Positions 569-24,302 of a DNA stretch of 26,121 nt are shown in pieces. The number at the start of each line of letters is the position of its first letter. Positions within the stretch are counted from its first letter, which is position 1. The stretch lies in IMG/VR virus record IMGVR_UViG_3300009008_002133, positions 1 to 26,121 of that record, one strand, 5' to 3'. Source of the stretch: a virus. A program made the position numbers and the translations under genes. The notes beneath the pieces were generated by a model. That model had not been told where the DNA came from and did no database searches. It saw only the letters and a program-made list of their open reading frames with translations.

Positions 569-700
569 ATGACCGACGGCCCCTGTCCCCACGGCAACAC
601 GCCCGAGAGCGGCCTGCTGTGCTGCCTCTACGACGACTCGGAGGAGGCCCGAGAGCCGCCCTGCGGCTGCCAGGCGCTCGAGGCGAAGGAGGACCGATGA
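569..700 (+). CDS. Tiny Cys-rich hypothetical protein (43 aa)
   Basis: The ATG at 569 lies two bases after the preceding stop, and the stop TGA at 698-700 overlaps the next start (ATGA). The 43-residue product has six cysteines (about 6, 18, 19, 32, 34 plus His8), so metal binding is possible but not shown. It is acidic toward the C-terminus. The coupling on both sides is the main argument that it is translated. No family recognised. Confidence 0.5.
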   Translation: MTDGPCPHGNTPESGLLCCLYDDSEEAREPPCGCQALEAKEDR

Positions 701-1401
701 TCGACCTGGACGACATCGAAGCGAGGCGAGCGACATGCCTGCCGTCCTGTGGCGCTGACGCCAGCCACTGGCCGGGCACCGGCAGCGGGCTGGAGCGACT
801 GCTTTACACCGACATCCCGGCGCTGGTGAAGGAGGTGCGGAGGCTGCGGAAGGAAGAGCGCGCCCTCGTGGCCGATGCGCTCGACATCGCGGACCGTGCA
901 GTCGAAGCCGAGCAGCAGCGCGACGCCGCCGTGGCCGAACGCATCGCGCGCCAGCGTGGAGGAGGCGCCCGCATCGACGGCGAACCGGCCACCGCCAACC
1001 CGCACCCGGACGGACTGCTTTGGATTGCGTGGGAGGAAGGGTGGCGCGCACAGGACGCTGTCGAGGAGGTGGAGCGGCTGAAGACCCAACCCCACGACGA
1101 CGACTGTGCGTGCCCGCCCTGCTGCGAGGTGACGGCGCTGGCTGACGAGGTCCGCCGCCTGAAGCCCCAGCAGGACGACGAAGATGACGGCCCTCGAATC
1201 TGCCCCACGTGTGCGGGCAGTGGCGAGAACATCCACTCCATGCCCGGTGAGGGCACCTGTGGCACTTGTGGCGGCGGGGGAGAGGTCGGGCCGGACGACG
1301 AGGATGACGACTGGTACGACATCCCTGACGACGACGACTGCGATCCCGCAGACTACGACCGAGCTGCTGACGCCTACGAGTCTCAGCTCTGGGGGGACTG
1401 A
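697..1401 (+). CDS. Coiled-coil protein with DnaJ-type zinc-binding repeats (234 aa)
   Basis: The start at ATG 697 overlaps the upstream stop. The N-terminus (IDLDDIEARRA...DIPALVKEVRRLR, residues 2-51) resembles the opening of common small phage proteins of the Ead/Ea22-like type. A charged heptad-like helix follows (about 41-87), then a second short helix with 'EVERLK' and a CxCxxCC cluster (137-143). Residues 169-196 hold C-P-T-C-x-G-x-G and C-G-T-C-G-G-G-G, a pair of DnaJ-like Cys motifs (C169, C172, C188, C191). The C-terminus is very acidic (long Asp runs). The zinc motif often occurs in small phage proteins unrelated to chaperones, so a chaperone role should not be assumed. Function unknown. 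Confidence 0.7.
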   Translation: MIDLDDIEARRATCLPSCGADASHWPGTGSGLERLLYTDIPALVKEVRRLRKEERALVADALDIADRAVEAEQQRDAAVAERIARQRGGGARIDGEPATANPHPDGLLWIAWEEGWRAQDAVEEVERLKTQPHDDDCACPPCCEVTALADEVRRLKPQQDDEDDGPRICPTCAGSGENIHSMPGEGTCGTCGGGGEVGPDDEDDDWYDIPDDDDCDPADYDRAADAYESQLWGD

Positions 1402-1473: not shown

Positions 1474-2774
1474 TGACAGATCCACGCAAGGTCAAGAGCG
1501 GCTCGAGTCCGAGGTCGGATGGACCGTCGGTCGGCCGTAGCCATGTTGGTCAAGCGGTCGCCGCAGCATCGATGCGGGAGTTCTCGCCCTCGGGCGTCGC
1601 GGCAGCGGGACCGATCGACGTGGTCGATCTCTTCTGCGGCTGTGGCGGGCTATCGGCGGGCTTCGAGCTTGTCGGCCGCCTGACGCCGAGTTTCCGGCTG
1701 ACAGCAGCGGCTGACCTGGATGAGCAGGCGATTGAGACATTCGCGGCAAACCTCCCCCTGCAACCCCTTCAAGTAGATCTCCTCGAAGTTGCATCGTCTC
1801 AAGCCGCGATCGAACGGTTCGTCGCATCGCTTCCGCTACGCCCCGGAGCACTGGTGGTGATTGGCGGCCCCCCCTGCCAGGGCTTCTCAGCACACGGAAA
1901 GAAGCTGCGACGAGCCCACGACAAGCGCAACCAACTGGTAGATGCCTTCGCACGGATCGTCGTTCGGCTCCAGCCTGACTTTCTCGTCATGGAGAATGTC
2001 CCGGAATTGCTGGCGAAGAAGCACTGGAAGCGGTTCGAAACCCTAAAGGCGGCGCTGGAGCCCGACTACCAAGTGCGAGCGCAGGTGCACAACTTGGCCG
2101 GGTTCGGCGTGCCGCAAGCCCGGTATCGGGCTCTCGTGATGGCCGCGAGGAACCCCTTCCTCATGCCTGAGCCGTTCCTTGAACCACCGGAGTACTTGAC
2201 CGTCCGCGCAGCGATTGGCCACTTGCCCAAGATCCAGCCCGGTGTGCCCGACGCTAGCGATCCGATGCACGTCTGCACTCGGCATAGGAAGTCGACGATC
2301 GACACCATGAGGCAGGTGCCTGCCGACGGCGGCACGCGCCCACCCGGCGTTGGTCCGAAGTGTCTGGACCGAGTCGATGGCTACCGTGATGTCTACGGCA
2401 GGCTGTACTGGGATCGTCCGGCGAACACGATCACCGGGTTCGCCCGTAACCCTGCGAGTGGCAGGTTCGTGCATCCCGAGCAGGACCGCGGCCTGAGCAT
2501 CCGTGAGGCCGCGCTACTGCAGGGCTTTCCGGCTCAGTGGGGTTTCCGAGGCTCCTTTGATCACAGGTTCATCCAGATCGGGAACGCAGTCCCCCCTGTC
2601 TTCGCCGCGTCAGTAGCAGCCCACGTCCTGGAGGAGTTGAAGACTAGCCGGCAAGCGCTCCAGCCCGACCAGACCACACGGGATGTGGAAGAGCCACACA
2701 GCAACTCCTTCTCAAGCGGGATTGCTGGCAGAAAGCGTGGGCTGAGGAACCGATGCGCCGAACAGACTCTATAG
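1470..2774 (+). CDS. DNA (cytosine-5-)-methyltransferase 1 (434 aa)
   Basis: It transfers a methyl group from S-adenosylmethionine to C5 of cytosine in a specific DNA site. Motifs appear in canonical order: motif I V-D-L-F-C-G-C-G-G (about 52-60), motif IV G-G-P-P-C-Q-G-F-S with catalytic Cys136, motif VI M-E-N-V (174-177), motif VIII Q-A-R-Y-R (216-220), target-recognition region about 230-325, motif IX around 'RPANTITGFARNP', and motif X Q-I-G-N-A-V-P-P (369-376). All key residues are present, so it should be active. The ~48 residues before motif I are longer than usual. The chosen ATG has GGAG five bases upstream; Met35 (1572) is an alternative start with no good ribosome site. It overlaps the second methyltransferase by 22 bases. 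No restriction endonuclease lies next to it, so self-protection against host restriction is the likely role (inference). Confidence 0.93.
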   Translation: MMTDPRKVKSGSSPRSDGPSVGRSHVGQAVAAASMREFSPSGVAAAGPIDVVDLFCGCGGLSAGFELVGRLTPSFRLTAAADLDEQAIETFAANLPLQPLQVDLLEVASSQAAIERFVASLPLRPGALVVIGGPPCQGFSAHGKKLRRAHDKRNQLVDAFARIVVRLQPDFLVMENVPELLAKKHWKRFETLKAALEPDYQVRAQVHNLAGFGVPQARYRALVMAARNPFLMPEPFLEPPEYLTVRAAIGHLPKIQPGVPDASDPMHVCTRHRKSTIDTMRQVPADGGTRPPGVGPKCLDRVDGYRDVYGRLYWDRPANTITGFARNPASGRFVHPEQDRGLSIREAALLQGFPAQWGFRGSFDHRFIQIGNAVPPVFAASVAAHVLEELKTSRQALQPDQTTRDVEEPHSNSFSSGIAGRKRGLRNRCAEQTL

Positions 2775-3871
2775 CGATTGACTGCTTTGCGGGCGCGGGG
2801 GGCCTGTCACTCGGCCTTCAGCGCGCGGGCTTTGAAGTCCGCGCAGCGTTCGACTTTGACGAGGCGGCGGTCGAGACATATCGGCGAAACTTGGGCGACC
2901 ATATCGAGCTTGCCGATGTGAGGACTGTCCACGGAGAGGACCTTCTGGCTCGTGCCGGGCTGCGAAGGGGGGAACTCGCACTTCTCGCGGGAGGCCCCCC
3001 ATGCCAGGGATTCTCAGTTCAGCGACGAGGAGCCGACGAGGACGTGCGAAACGACCTTGTGCTCGAGTTCGGTCGCTTGGTGCTGGAGACCCAGCCAAAG
3101 TACGTGCTGATGGAAAACGTCGCCGCACTGCGTGGACGTCGCGGTTCCGCCGTCCTCAAGAAGATCTCATCGCTTCTGTCGGAATCCTATCGGCTGGTCG
3201 TGGAGACCCTGAACGCAGCCGACTTCGGGGTGCCGCAAAACCGACGACGCGCAATCTTGATCGCGGAACGTCTCGACATACCGCCGACCTTTCAGTGGCC
3301 CCAGCCCACGCATGGTCAAGGCGAGCGGGTCACCGTCAGAGAGGCGATTGCTGATCTCCCCTGTCCGTTCATTGACCCCAAGGCTGCGGCGAGGATCCCC
3401 AACCACAGGCCCGACCGAATCTCGGCAAAGAACCGGACGAGGATCTCCCACGTTCCTCCTGGCGGGGGAAGGGCCGATATTCCTCCGGAATTGCGATTGC
3501 CCTGTCACCAAGTCAGTGTCGAGAAGGCAGGACACCGCGGGGTCTATGGTCGCCTTCCGTGGGATGCCCCGGCGAGCACGATTACCACACGCTGCAACAG
3601 CTTCACTCGGGGGCGATTCGCGCATCCAGAACTCAACCGGAACATCACCATGCGCGAGGCAGCTCGGCTCCAGTCGTTCCCAGATGACTTCGTCTTCTCT
3701 GGAGGCACGGTGCCGACGGCTCACCAGGTGGGCAACGCCGTGCCCCCCCTCCTAGCAGAGAGCCTCGGAAGGGCGATTCGCAGGGCGCTACAGGCCGAGG
3801 GGCTTGTGAGGGTGACGCCGCAGCACAGCGACTCGGCGAAGGGCGTGGCGTCTCAGTTGACGTTGCTGTAG
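2753..3871 (+). CDS. DNA (cytosine-5-)-methyltransferase 2 (372 aa)
   Basis: A second complete C5-cytosine methyltransferase, starting inside the first gene. Motif I I-D-C-F-A-G-A-G-G (about 9-17), motif IV G-G-P-P-C-Q-G-F-S with catalytic Cys84, motif VI M-E-N-V (120-123), motif VIII Q-N-R-R-R (162-166), motif IX near 'APASTITTRC' and motif X Q-V-G-N-A-V-P-P near the C-terminus are all visible. The recognition region (about 175-290) differs in sequence from the first enzyme's, although both share the block 'VYGRL-WD-PA-TIT' and 'GRF-HPE'. The start ATG 2753 has GAGGA just upstream and suggests translational coupling. Paired C5 enzymes are known where the two strands of an asymmetric site need separate enzymes; whether that applies here is not visible. 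Confidence 0.93.
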   Translation: MRRTDSIAIDCFAGAGGLSLGLQRAGFEVRAAFDFDEAAVETYRRNLGDHIELADVRTVHGEDLLARAGLRRGELALLAGGPPCQGFSVQRRGADEDVRNDLVLEFGRLVLETQPKYVLMENVAALRGRRGSAVLKKISSLLSESYRLVVETLNAADFGVPQNRRRAILIAERLDIPPTFQWPQPTHGQGERVTVREAIADLPCPFIDPKAAARIPNHRPDRISAKNRTRISHVPPGGGRADIPPELRLPCHQVSVEKAGHRGVYGRLPWDAPASTITTRCNSFTRGRFAHPELNRNITMREAARLQSFPDDFVFSGGTVPTAHQVGNAVPPLLAESLGRAIRRALQAEGLVRVTPQHSDSAKGVASQLTLL

Positions 3872-4473: not shown

Positions 4474-4740
4474 ATGACCAGCACCTACCTCATCCTCAGC
4501 GACATCACCACCGCCCGCGCCACCGTCGAGGCCGTCTACTCGGACGCCTGGGACGTCGTGGAGCACGTCGAGGACACGAGCGACCAGCACGAGGTCGCGG
4601 CCTGGACCGGCGAGGGCTGCCCCGCGGTCGGCGATCGCATCTACCTCGGCGACGTCGAGACGGCCAGGCAGCGCGGGGGGATGGGGGCGCTGGAGATCGC
4701 GCGCCGGCTGATCGAGTTCGATGCGGAGGGCGTGGCGTGA
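4474..4740 (+). CDS. Hypothetical protein (88 aa)
   Basis: The start ATG 4474 follows a GGGAGA ribosome site; the frame is open further upstream but that part covers the two hairpins. The 88 residues are acidic with alternating strands and helices (STYLILSDITTARATVEAVY, then DVVEHVEDTSD, then VGDRIYLGDVETARQ) and a helical end (ALEIARRLIEFDAEGVA). It resembles no family I can name. The stop TGA (4738-4740) overlaps the GTG start of the PP-loop gene, so the two are probably translationally coupled and may act together. Confidence 0.65.
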   Translation: MTSTYLILSDITTARATVEAVYSDAWDVVEHVEDTSDQHEVAAWTGEGCPAVGDRIYLGDVETARQRGGMGALEIARRLIEFDAEGVA

Positions 4741-5615
4741 GGTCTTTCGTCAACTACGGTGCAGGCACGAACAGCACGGCGGTTCTCGTCGAGGCTGTTC
4801 GTCGCGGACTGCGGGTCGACGCCGCTGTCTTCGCGGACACTGGCGGCGAGATGCCCGAGACGTATCGCTACCTCTGGCAATTCGCAGAGTGGCTCAGGAA
4901 GCACGACATCCCGCTGGTGATGACGAGCGCCCGCCTCGCGGGGCAGCCGATCACCCTGGAGGAGCACAGCCTGCGACTCCATCGCATGCCGTCGGTCTCC
5001 TACGGCCGCAAGTCGTGCTCCCTGCGCTTCAAGGCCGAGCCTGTCGAGCGGTGGCTCAAGGCGCAACTCGCCCCCGGAGAGCGGTGCATCCGGGTGATCG
5101 GCTTCGACGCAGACGAGCCCCAACGCGCCCGCCTCCCGGAGGGCGGTCCCTGGGTTTGGAGCTATCCGCTGATCGAGTGGAACATGGGCCGCGAGGAGTG
5201 CGCCGAGGTCATCATGAGCGCCGGCCTCCCCCTGCCCGGCAAATCCTCCTGCTTCTTCTGCGGCTCCGCCCGCCCCCCTGAGGTCGCCGCACTGGACGAC
5301 GAGTGGATAGAGCGCGGCATCGCCATCGAGGACGCCGCGCGACCCTTCTCGGGGAGCATCCGGGGGCTCGGGAAGAATTTCTTGTGGCGCGACGTGCTCC
5401 GCTCGAAGCGGCAGCAACTCGCCCTGCCGATTGCGCCGAGCGGGCCAGACGACCCCTGCGGCTGCTGGGAGGGTGCCAGGGACGCCGACTTGTCCTTTGC
5501 GGCGGGCTACTGCGGCACCTGGGACGCCCCCGTCCGGCAGGAGTTCGCGGAGGAGTGGCCGGTATGGCATGCCCCCAGTTCGACGAAGGCCGAGCAAGTG
5601 GGGATGTTCGCGTGA
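4737..5615 (+). CDS. PAPS-reductase-like adenine nucleotide alpha-hydrolase (292 aa)
   Basis: A PP-loop enzyme of the phosphoadenosine-phosphosulfate reductase superfamily. Residues 5-15 (V-N-Y-G-A-G-T-N-S-T-A) are a degenerate SGGxDS-type PP-loop that binds ATP pyrophosphate. A strand with 'AAVFADTGGE' (29-38) follows, as in the family. Cysteines at 94 (GRKSCSLRFK), 172 and 175 (SCFFC) match the C...CxxC pattern of DndC-like and phage PAPS-reductase proteins, where they can hold an iron-sulfur cluster. Start GTG 4737 overlaps the upstream stop. Sulfate assimilation is unlikely in a phage. Family relatives act in DNA phosphorothioation or nucleic-acid thiolation, so a DNA-modification or anti-restriction role is the best inference. 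No other dnd-type genes are in view. There is a Cys-rich region near 241-259. Confidence 0.8.
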   Translation: MRSFVNYGAGTNSTAVLVEAVRRGLRVDAAVFADTGGEMPETYRYLWQFAEWLRKHDIPLVMTSARLAGQPITLEEHSLRLHRMPSVSYGRKSCSLRFKAEPVERWLKAQLAPGERCIRVIGFDADEPQRARLPEGGPWVWSYPLIEWNMGREECAEVIMSAGLPLPGKSSCFFCGSARPPEVAALDDEWIERGIAIEDAARPFSGSIRGLGKNFLWRDVLRSKRQQLALPIAPSGPDDPCGCWEGARDADLSFAAGYCGTWDAPVRQEFAEEWPVWHAPSSTKAEQVGMFA

Positions 5616-21204: not shown

Positions 21205-22128
21205 CTAGCTGTTGCCCGCCTGCATCGAGACGCCGGCCGCGTCGATGAGCTCGACAACTCCGGCGTACATGTGCATGGCCCAGCCGGTCTGGTCGGCGAG
21301 GGCGGAGCGGACACGGTCGAACAGGAAGCGCCCGCCCAACACCACCTGGTCGGAGGTGAGGTCGAGCACGCTCGGCGAGGCCCAGCCGTAGATGATGGCG
21401 CCGCGCCCGAACACCCCGCCCCAGACGTCCGTGGAGTCGTCGAGGCAGTGGGTGGAGGTCATGACGTCCACGCCGAACAGCCGGGGCTGCGCGCCGAGGC
21501 CGTGCATCACGTTGAGCATGGCCGCCGAGTCGGCGTTCCACTGCACCGCGCCACCGCTCGACAGGGCGACGTCGTCGCGGATGTCGGCGTAGATGCGGGG
21601 GTGCATGATGGACAGGTAGGGCCCCGGCACCTTCGCGATCTCCAGGGCGGTGATCGCGTCGAGGATGGTGGAGGCGCTCGCGTCCGTGCCGGTCGTGCCG
21701 GTGGTCGTCGAGAAGTTCTCCATCAGGTTGGCGACGAGGTACAGCAGGTTCGCGAAGCCGGACGCGATGGCGTCCTGAGCGAACACGGCCGCGTTCAGGG
21801 TGCCCGTCGGGTCCAGAATGCGAGCCAGGCCCGTCGAGGTGTAGACCTTGCCGTACTTGCCGATGGTGAGGGACGCGGTGGCGTCGCTCAGGGCGGTGTT
21901 GCTGATGCTGTTCGCCTCGAGGGTGGACGCCGGGAGGTCGTAGCCCATCAGGCCGAGAGCGCTCGCCTTGACGATGCGGGAGCCGCCGCGCTCGGCGTTG
22001 GCGTACTCGATCAGCGCCGGGTGGTTGGGCAGCGCGCCGCGGTCGGCGAGCAGGAGGGCCACGATGCCGGCCAGCTGCTCAGAGGCGAGCTGGTTGGCGA
22101 AGCTGGTGAGGGTGATTTCGTCGGCCAT
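21205..22128 (-). CDS. Major capsid protein (307 aa)
   Basis: The product begins 'MADEITLTSFANQLASEQLA' and has the balance of an HK97-fold shell protein of the kind without a long N-terminal scaffold: 'SALGLMGYDLPASTLEAN', 'GKVYTSTGLARILDPTGTL', a Thr/Gly-rich loop (STTTGTTGTDASAS), 'YLSIMHPRIYADIRDDVALS', 'RLFGVDVMTSTHCLDDSTDV', 'DQVVLGGRFLFDRVRSALAD'. The motif of 'GVDVM-S-H-LDD' followed by 'GAIIYG' is common in capsid proteins of this group. Placement after scaffold and before neck genes, and the dedicated promoter and leader upstream, support high expression. Length 307 is normal. Start ATG 22128. Confidence 0.85.
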   Translation of the reverse strand: MADEITLTSFANQLASEQLAGIVALLLADRGALPNHPALIEYANAERGGSRIVKASALGLMGYDLPASTLEANSISNTALSDATASLTIGKYGKVYTSTGLARILDPTGTLNAAVFAQDAIASGFANLLYLVANLMENFSTTTGTTGTDASASTILDAITALEIAKVPGPYLSIMHPRIYADIRDDVALSSGGAVQWNADSAAMLNVMHGLGAQPRLFGVDVMTSTHCLDDSTDVWGGVFGRGAIIYGWASPSVLDLTSDQVVLGGRFLFDRVRSALADQTGWAMHMYAGVVELIDAAGVSMQAGNS

Positions 22129-22140
22129 CTGGGCAGGTCT

Positions 22141-22174
22141 CCGCTGTGAGGTGCTGGGTTGGCGCCTACAGCGG
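22141..22174 (-). promoter_or_regulatory. Leader hairpin upstream of the capsid gene
   Basis: On the - strand, CCGCTGT (22174-22168) pairs perfectly with ACAGCGG (22147-22141) around a 20-base loop. The last G's of the 3' arm are part of the GGAG that could serve as ribosome site for ATG 22128, so the stem may partly hide it. It lies inside the ~75-base leader predicted from the promoter at 22209-22239. Confidence 0.4.
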
Positions 22175-22208
22175 GTTTGACCGGACCCGGGGCCGTGGTG
22201 GCGGGCTC

Positions 22209-22239
22209 ATGCTAGCGCATAGCGCTAGGCGAATGTCAA
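22209..22239 (-). promoter_or_regulatory. Capsid-gene promoter (TTGACA, 19-nt spacer, TAGCAT) containing a palindrome
   Basis: On the - strand TTGACA (22239-22234, consensus -35) and TAGCAT (22214-22209) are 19 bases apart. The -35 begins one base after the scaffold stop (22241). The spacing is one to two bases longer than ideal; a shifted -10 (CTAGCA) would give 18. Inside the spacer and touching the -10 is the palindrome CTAGCGC-n3-GCGCTAG. Confidence 0.6.
22212..22228. promoter_or_regulatory. 17-bp palindrome, candidate operator
   Basis: CTAGCGC (22212-22218) and GCGCTAG (22222-22228) are perfect inverted arms with a 3-base centre (ATA on the + strand). The dyad covers the spacer and part of the -10 box of the capsid promoter, which is where a repressor or activator dimer would sit. 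No second copy was noticed in this window. Confidence 0.5.
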
Positions 22240-22240
22240 G

Positions 22241-22831
22241 TCACTTCGTGCCCCAGGGGGTCCCGGTCAGGCGGGCCACCTCCGGCCAGTTCTGCGCCGC
22301 GACCGCCGCCTTGATCAGGGCATCCTTCGCATCTCCGCCGGTGGGCGGGATGACGCCGCGGGGGGTGCGCGGCTTCGGCTCGGGGGCCCCCTGCTTGCCC
22401 GCTCCGTTGAGGTAGGGCGCCAGGCCCGCCGGCACCTCGGCGCCCTCGGCCTTGAAGCCCTCGAGGTAGGCGCCGATCGACTCCGGACGACCGTCCGCAG
22501 GCATCGACGCGTAGAGCGCTCGTGCGATGGTCTGCCCCTCTGGCGAGGTCAGCCCGGCGCCGAAGAGGGCCCGCTCCTCGCCCCAGGCTGCCGCCGCGGA
22601 GGCGTGGTCAGCCTTGAGCGTCTCGATCTGCTGGTTCAGCGCACCGATGGCAGCGGAGCCCTCGTCGGCCGTCTTCTCGAAGGACGTCAGTCGCCCCCGG
22701 AGGTCGCGCCGTTCCCGGCGGAGCTCGGCGATGGTGGCGATGAGAGCTGCCTTGTCCTGGTCGGCCAGCACCTTGCCGTCGGGCTCGGGCGTCGGGGCGT
22801 CGGGAGTCGGGGTGCCCTGCTCGTCGCTCAT
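22241..22831 (-). CDS. Capsid scaffolding protein (196 aa)
   Basis: ATG 22831 overlaps the portal stop (ATGA). The N-terminus is Pro/Thr/Glu-rich (MSDEQGTPTPDAPTPEPDGK). A charged coiled coil follows (about 30-90: ALIATIAELRRERRDLRGRL, then EKTADEGSAAIGALNQQIET). The C-terminus is Lys/Pro-rich with 'KQGAPEPKPRTPRG' and ends 'VARLTGTPWGTK'. This low-complexity start, coiled coil and basic capsid-binding end, between portal and capsid genes, is the normal scaffold layout. Length is typical. It should be removed during head maturation; no protease gene is seen nearby. Confidence 0.75.
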   Translation of the reverse strand: MSDEQGTPTPDAPTPEPDGKVLADQDKAALIATIAELRRERRDLRGRLTSFEKTADEGSAAIGALNQQIETLKADHASAAAAWGEERALFGAGLTSPEGQTIARALYASMPADGRPESIGAYLEGFKAEGAEVPAGLAPYLNGAGKQGAPEPKPRTPRGVIPPTGGDAKDALIKAAVAAQNWPEVARLTGTPWGTK

Positions 22832-24272: not shown

Positions 24273-24302
24273 AGGCTAGCGGAGGGCGGTAGCGGGGCGC
24301 AA
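24273..24302 (-). promoter_or_regulatory. Promoter candidate before the portal gene (TTGCGC, 18 nt, TAGCCT)
   Basis: On the - strand TTGCGC (24302-24297) and TAGCCT (24278-24273) are 18 bases apart, in the 78-base gap between terminase and portal, the only such gap in this part apart from that before the capsid gene. The -35 and spacing equal those of the left-arm promoter at 4065. The leader to ATG 24231 would be about 35 bases. Confidence 0.45.

Follow-up and report, generated by a model that had tools for sequence, protein, structure and literature searches.

Translational riboswitches of the preQ1-I type are composed of a small conserved core, variable stems, an A-rich linker, and an arm that pairs with the Shine-Dalgarno sequence in a mutually exclusive manner. 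In the phages T4 and RB69, the gene 32 mRNA carries a structured leader, about 67 nt upstream of the start codon, which controls ribosome access (PMC3014915). A riboswitch has also been reported from a phage, namely a glutamine riboswitch at the tmRNA gene of Melnitz (PMC9004378). At the DNA level, promoters of the MerR family have spacers of 19–20 bp and a palindrome between the boxes (PMC9909328). The locus described here, a capsid gene promoter overlapped by a perfect palindrome and followed by a folded leader, was compared with each of these systems.

The window, which is the whole stretch analysed, comprised 26,121 nt of the IMG/VR virus record IMGVR_UViG_3300009008_002133. The major capsid protein gene (307 aa; positions 21205–22128, minus strand) was preceded by its upstream neighbour, the scaffold gene (196 aa; 22241–22831, minus strand). 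The capsid assignment was based on homologues, which matched 'major head protein' families of PHROG as well as proteins annotated as major capsid proteins. The scaffold assignment was based on a sub-threshold match to Pfam Phage_scaffold (E 0.073) and on gene order, the gene lying between those for portal and capsid as it does in isolates. Direct family matches for the capsid and portal of the window were not obtained. The gene names given in the initial annotation were thus supported indirectly, by the 'major head protein' matches of relatives and by the order portal, scaffold, and major capsid in isolates with homologous capsids. In two isolate phages with homologous capsids, the gap between scaffold and capsid was 15–29 nt, with no leader. 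Searches for relatives of the window's own capsid found none among isolates and confirmed none in bacterial genomes, and when all capsids were aligned, their divergence made the alignment unsuitable for scanning. Elsewhere in the window, two adjacent and overlapping C5 cytosine DNA methyltransferase genes (1470–2774 and 2753–3871, plus strand) were followed downstream by a PAPS-reductase-like gene (4737–5615), and a 260-aa open reading frame (619–1401, plus strand) contained a weak match, below the cutoff, to the Pfam entry for ribosome modulation factor (E 0.0009).

The −35 box, TTGACA (22234–22239, minus strand), lay one base past the scaffold stop codon, as noted in the initial annotation (TGA at 22243–22241, C at 22240, and TTGACA at 22239–22234). 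The equally correctly described 19-nt spacer separated it from the −10 box, TAGCAT (22209–22214, minus strand), which was assigned from the sequence and from TAGNNT at the same place in the relatives L001, L002, L011, and L013 (19-nt spacer) and L006 (18-nt spacer). TTGACA occurred once per strand in these 26 kb of 69% GC DNA, and the box is notable in so GC-rich a sequence, unlike the palindrome. Capsid homologues were gathered by protein similarity and by DNA pattern, with a capsid profile as confirmation; most loci of the promoter survey came from protein similarity alone, and a few, for which the result is biased, had been picked up by the promoter pattern. TTGAC[ACGT] was located 50–130 nt upstream of the start codon in 72 of 77 distinct leaders of capsid homologues, which reached down to about 25% protein identity, and a promoter match of at least 8 was found in 95% of the 77 leaders, compared with 5% in shuffles. 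Most spacers (70 leaders) measured 17–18 nt; the five leaders of the window's clade had 19 nt, and two others had 16 nt. The capsid proteins of distant members shared as little as about 19–31% identity with that of the window, and the fixed position of the promoter is therefore meaningful. The arrangement of a σ70/SigA-type promoter, TTGACA combined with TANNNT at 16–19 nt and conserved in position, was thus present here. Judged by its conservation, TTGACA-N19-TAGCAT is a real promoter of the housekeeping-sigma type, dedicated to the gene of the major capsid protein. The earlier proposal that capsid expression is controlled apart from portal and scaffold was likewise supported. A promoter-like site, TTGCGC-N18-TAGCCT (24273–24302, minus strand), was recognized by pattern only before the portal gene, where L002 and L013 have TTGCCC-N17-TAGGCT with CCCCG...CGGGG in the spacer.

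The perfect 7-3-7 palindrome, CTAGCGC-n3-GCGCTAG (22212–22228), was present as first described and read CTAGCGC-TAT-GCGCTAG on the minus strand (22228–22212). It had been placed between the boxes and said to fill the spacer. Instead, the right arm included the TAG of TAGCAT (22214–22212), so that dyad and −10 box shared 3 bases, and spacer positions 6–19 were covered with the centre at position 14. Perfect repeats with arms of at least 7 and loops of 0–8 nt numbered 25 in the window, compared with 36.6 in dinucleotide shuffles. Shuffling produced a repeat with arms of at least 7 in about 3% of cases for the 31-nt stretch and in about 6% for the 112-nt intergenic region, and such a repeat was found in 1.8–2% of real 41-nt windows from this record and related contigs. 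On these frequencies, the repeat is locally uncommon yet not remarkable.

When the window was aligned with L002, L001/L011, and L013, all retained TTGACA-N19-TAG[CG][AC]T and the segment CTATGCG[CT]TAG. The arms about the centre of the window's dyad were 7 bp in the window, 6 bp with a 4-nt loop in L002, 4 bp in L001, and 3 bp in L013. The initial annotation had read the dyad as a control site, a reading to be abandoned if relatives kept the promoter and lost the dyad. Precisely this was observed in the relatives with 81–85% capsid identity, which retained TTGACA-N19-TAGNNT and had lost the left arm; the perfect repeat was private to the window. Another, shifted dyad, CCTATGC-n4-GCATAGG, had its centre where the −10 box starts in L001, L011, and L013, and the window retained only ATGC-n4-GCAT of it. 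This shifted dyad occurred once per contig in its records, which ruled it out as a repeated operator. Promoter dyads thus varied in sequence and in place between lineages. In a large sister clade, an inverted repeat TGACA-n3-TGTCA lay over the −35 box in most members (L163, L026, L037, L128, and others), and L153 carried an 8-3-8 version of it.

Each lineage may possess, as its own operator, a palindrome bound by a repressor or activator of the phage or the host whose specificity evolves fast. Arms of at least 6 bp were found at the promoter in 6 of 24 leader clusters (p 0.005 against real windows, for a threshold chosen post hoc), every sequenced promoter of the window's clade has an inverted repeat of 6 or 7 bp, and the repeat over the −35 box was retained in most of the 26 members of the sister clade. 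However, enrichment across the leader clusters was not significant for arms of at least 5 bp (p 0.07), and the dyads differed in sequence and in place relative to the boxes even at over 80% capsid identity. Neither conservation in close relatives nor further copies at other promoters, as would mark a conserved phage operator, were seen for the window's dyad. Its sequence had a single copy in the 26-kb record, and a search allowing up to two mismatches returned only a non-palindromic, chance-level match at 24276. In addition, a Pfam DNA-binding regulator was absent among the open reading frames tested, in a record that may be incomplete. The pattern leaves room for fast-changing operators and does not support any specific one, and an operator at this site is considered unlikely.

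The over-long spacer had also suggested MerR-like logic, in which an activator distorts the promoter to align the boxes. MerR-family promoters have in common with this site the 19-nt spacer and an inverted repeat close to it. The geometry of the dyad does not fit this model, because the MerR palindrome is centred in its 19–20 bp spacer, whereas the dyad here was 4 nt from the spacer centre (position 14 of 19) and extended into the −10 box. Moreover, relatives with an equal 19-nt spacer had no dyad there, the spacers of other lineages were 17–18 nt, and no MerR-family protein was found among the tested open reading frames of this possibly incomplete record. MerR-like activation is therefore regarded as close to negligible.

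The dyad could also act as an RNA hairpin in a longer portal–scaffold transcript, ending or protecting that message. It is located 12 nt past the scaffold stop codon, and stems of 6–7 bp are similarly placed in relatives. However, the stems were out of register between relatives, a T-run after the dyad was absent, and the dyad was not among the terminator-like sites found. In a sister clade (L037, L190, L170, L203, L204, and others), a perfect hairpin of 6–9 bp begins the capsid message 0–6 nt past the −10 box, with at least 8 different sequences; 6 bp was attained in 2.6% of shuffles. These hairpins by the promoter lend some support to a transcript hairpin, yet they would be transcribed from the capsid promoter, and the role in the longer transcript is very unlikely. 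A palindrome over a promoter in a single genome tells little before comparison with relatives, and the palindrome of the window, being private to its lineage, is probably incidental and unimportant.

The conserved features extended into the transcribed region. A folded leader RNA was found ahead of the coat-protein gene in about 70 uncultivated phage sequences. Side-by-side comparison of the leaders revealed a recurring element, composed of the stem P1, the hairpin P2, a linker, and the partner strand of P1. The short P1 stem, variable in sequence, encloses P2 (CGGG-TCGNNN-CCCG and variants) and the A-rich linker, which resembles T[AC]AA[AC]AGCG. Training on 31 leaders, all from outside the window's clade, gave the covariance model R1, which yielded an alignment of 68 matches with 52 distinct sequences. 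In this alignment, which was fitted to the P1/P2 structure and thus favours it, P1 and P2 were paired in 83.3% of cells, compared with 34–49% in six slid controls, and the covariation score was 0.375, compared with at most 0.139 in the controls, with 61 cells altered on both sides. The changes in P1 were also visible in the raw sequences, as GGCC/GGCC, GTCCC/GGGAC, GTCCG/CGGAC, and GGAT/ATCC, and further as GCGC/GCGC, ACCGG/CCGGT, and GAGCC/GGCTC. Among 24 clusters, the pairing of P1 with its own partner exceeded that in all 5000 partner swaps. A loop–linker pseudoknot was rejected, its own partners pairing no better than swapped ones (p 0.74).

A search of 16 whole records with R1 returned a single copy per record in 13 of them and nothing at threshold in the remainder, and among 85 unrelated control contigs sharing the promoter pattern the sole match, L094, was itself a capsid leader. 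A second model, R2, built from part of the family, matched L177, L195, and L136, weakly the leaders of L001, L014, and L147, and two wrong places. Since R2 recovered few of them, the distant clades are poorly linked by sequence alone. The Rfam 15 covariance models gave no relevant family for the window at the gathering threshold or for 24 related loci at E values up to 5 and 2. No paper on such a capsid leader RNA was found in the open-access literature searched; the motif might be listed in a catalogue, reportedly published in 2023 by Fremin and co-workers, that covers candidates for structured RNAs from viruses and phages. The P2–linker core was conserved in sequence across lineages with wholly different P1 stems, which suggests that something recognizes this core. 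In L143, two tandem leader elements (P1 GCCC/GGGC, then GTCCG/CGGAC) occupy the region from promoter to capsid start (1335–1437), as in some tandem riboswitches. In the leaders of L190, L196, and L197, P2 is CGGGTTCGARCTCCCG, which resembles a tRNA T-arm; its loops are shorter elsewhere, for example TCGAGT.

In many lineages, the window included, the linker pairs with a stretch that touches or includes the Shine-Dalgarno sequence, forming a third stem, P3. For example, CCCGAAATAGC pairs with GCTATTTCGGG in L157, AAAAGCGAA with TTCGCTTTT in L178, and CGAATCTCC with GGAGATTCG in L004. The pairing of P3 with its own partner exceeded all 5000 partner permutations over 24 clusters, although this swap test, used for P1 too, was possibly helped by shared base composition. 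The comparison with dinucleotide shuffles, which is free of this effect, gave a Fisher p of 1.7e-8, with 10 of the 24 clusters individually at or below 0.05 and the window at 0.003. In some clades, among them the largest, P3 was weak or absent.

The window's own leader (22129–22203, minus strand), with a transcription start predicted from the −10 box at about 22202, was conserved in its clade and folded with a minimum free energy of −34.5 kcal/mol (z −2.55). R1 matched P1, P2, the linker, and P1′ at 22160–22198 (minus strand) with 16.0 bits and an E value of 0.05 for the window alone. Although the leader was absent from the training set, this was the best match of R1 in the window and lay exactly at the expected place. 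R1 also matched the leaders of L001, L011, L013, and L006. The P2-like hairpin, GGCC-CCGGGTCC-GGTC (22179–22194, minus strand), was deduced from the window's clade, in which L002 and L013 have G-U pairs, and has diverged from the CGGG-TCGNNN-CCCG of the family. The 5′ strand of P3, GGTC-AAAC-CCGCTGTAGG (22165–22182, minus strand), faces the 3′ strand, CCTCACAGCGG-A-GACC (22136–22151, minus strand), which holds the Shine-Dalgarno GGAG (22142–22139). In the duplex, GGTC and CCGCTGTAGG pair with GACC and CCTCACAGCGG at −20.9 kcal/mol, and three of the four GGAG bases are paired in the fold of the window, one A being unpaired. Within the clade, the stem was kept by a compensatory change from A-U to U-A relative to the relatives. 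The P1/P2 helices that covary in the family were reflected in part in the window, and the arm pairing with the Shine-Dalgarno region was present. With P2 diverged and the R1 match marginal by itself, the window's leader likely, though not certainly, belongs to the leader RNA family.

Taken together, the locus is best read, with a probability of roughly two in three, as a dedicated conserved promoter with an incidental palindrome, in which the conserved control of the capsid gene resides in the transcribed leader RNA family of P1, P2, linker, and often P3. From its sequence and predicted folds, the leader may be read as an element that controls translation of the major capsid protein. The dedicated promoter would yield a message in which the leader masks the ribosome-binding site of the capsid gene, and translation of the capsid would be low as long as P3 is formed. 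Stabilization of the P1/P2 core, possibly through binding of a protein or a small molecule, would withdraw the linker and allow ribosomes to start. A factor that stabilizes P1/P2 would in this way relieve the masking, and its absence would impose it.

The nearest documented parallel is the T4 gene 32 leader, which is likewise a structured phage mRNA leader controlling ribosome access, as proposed here. The likeness would lie in the logic, with fold and gene unrelated: gene 32 encodes a DNA-binding replication protein under known autogenous control, whereas the present leader, with its P1/P2/linker fold, precedes the major capsid gene. In architecture, the conserved core, variable stems, A-rich linker, and arm pairing with the Shine-Dalgarno sequence parallel the preQ1-I type, but unlike in translational riboswitches no Rfam riboswitch matched and a core pseudoknot was not supported. 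The reported phage riboswitches are also cis-acting RNA elements in environmental phages; they differ in being phage copies of known cellular classes and in not being located at capsid genes.

The leader might merely be a stable hairpin that protects the mRNA, or a standard control of accessibility without any switch, in which P3 is a fixed masking stem. This is consistent with the strong folding of the window's leader into a single long stem pairing with the Shine-Dalgarno region and with the 5′-terminal hairpin that opens sister-clade leaders, whereas the conservation of the P2–linker core over unrelated P1 stems and the two tandem copies in L143 argue against it; a leader without a switch is judged doubtful. 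Conversely, the family could represent a new ligand-sensing, riboswitch-like or capsid-autoregulating class of leader RNA, spread widely among uncultivated phages with double-stranded DNA, which would set the synthesis of the major capsid protein through alternative folds that hide or free the Shine-Dalgarno sequence; we hold this possibility tentatively, with the odds against it.

No product is needed more by a tailed phage than the major capsid protein, which must be made in the right proportion to scaffold and portal. A capsid leader RNA of this kind would be a family absent from Rfam, and a conserved structured leader of the capsid gene in many lineages would offer a testable mechanism for the post-transcriptional setting of capsid dose.
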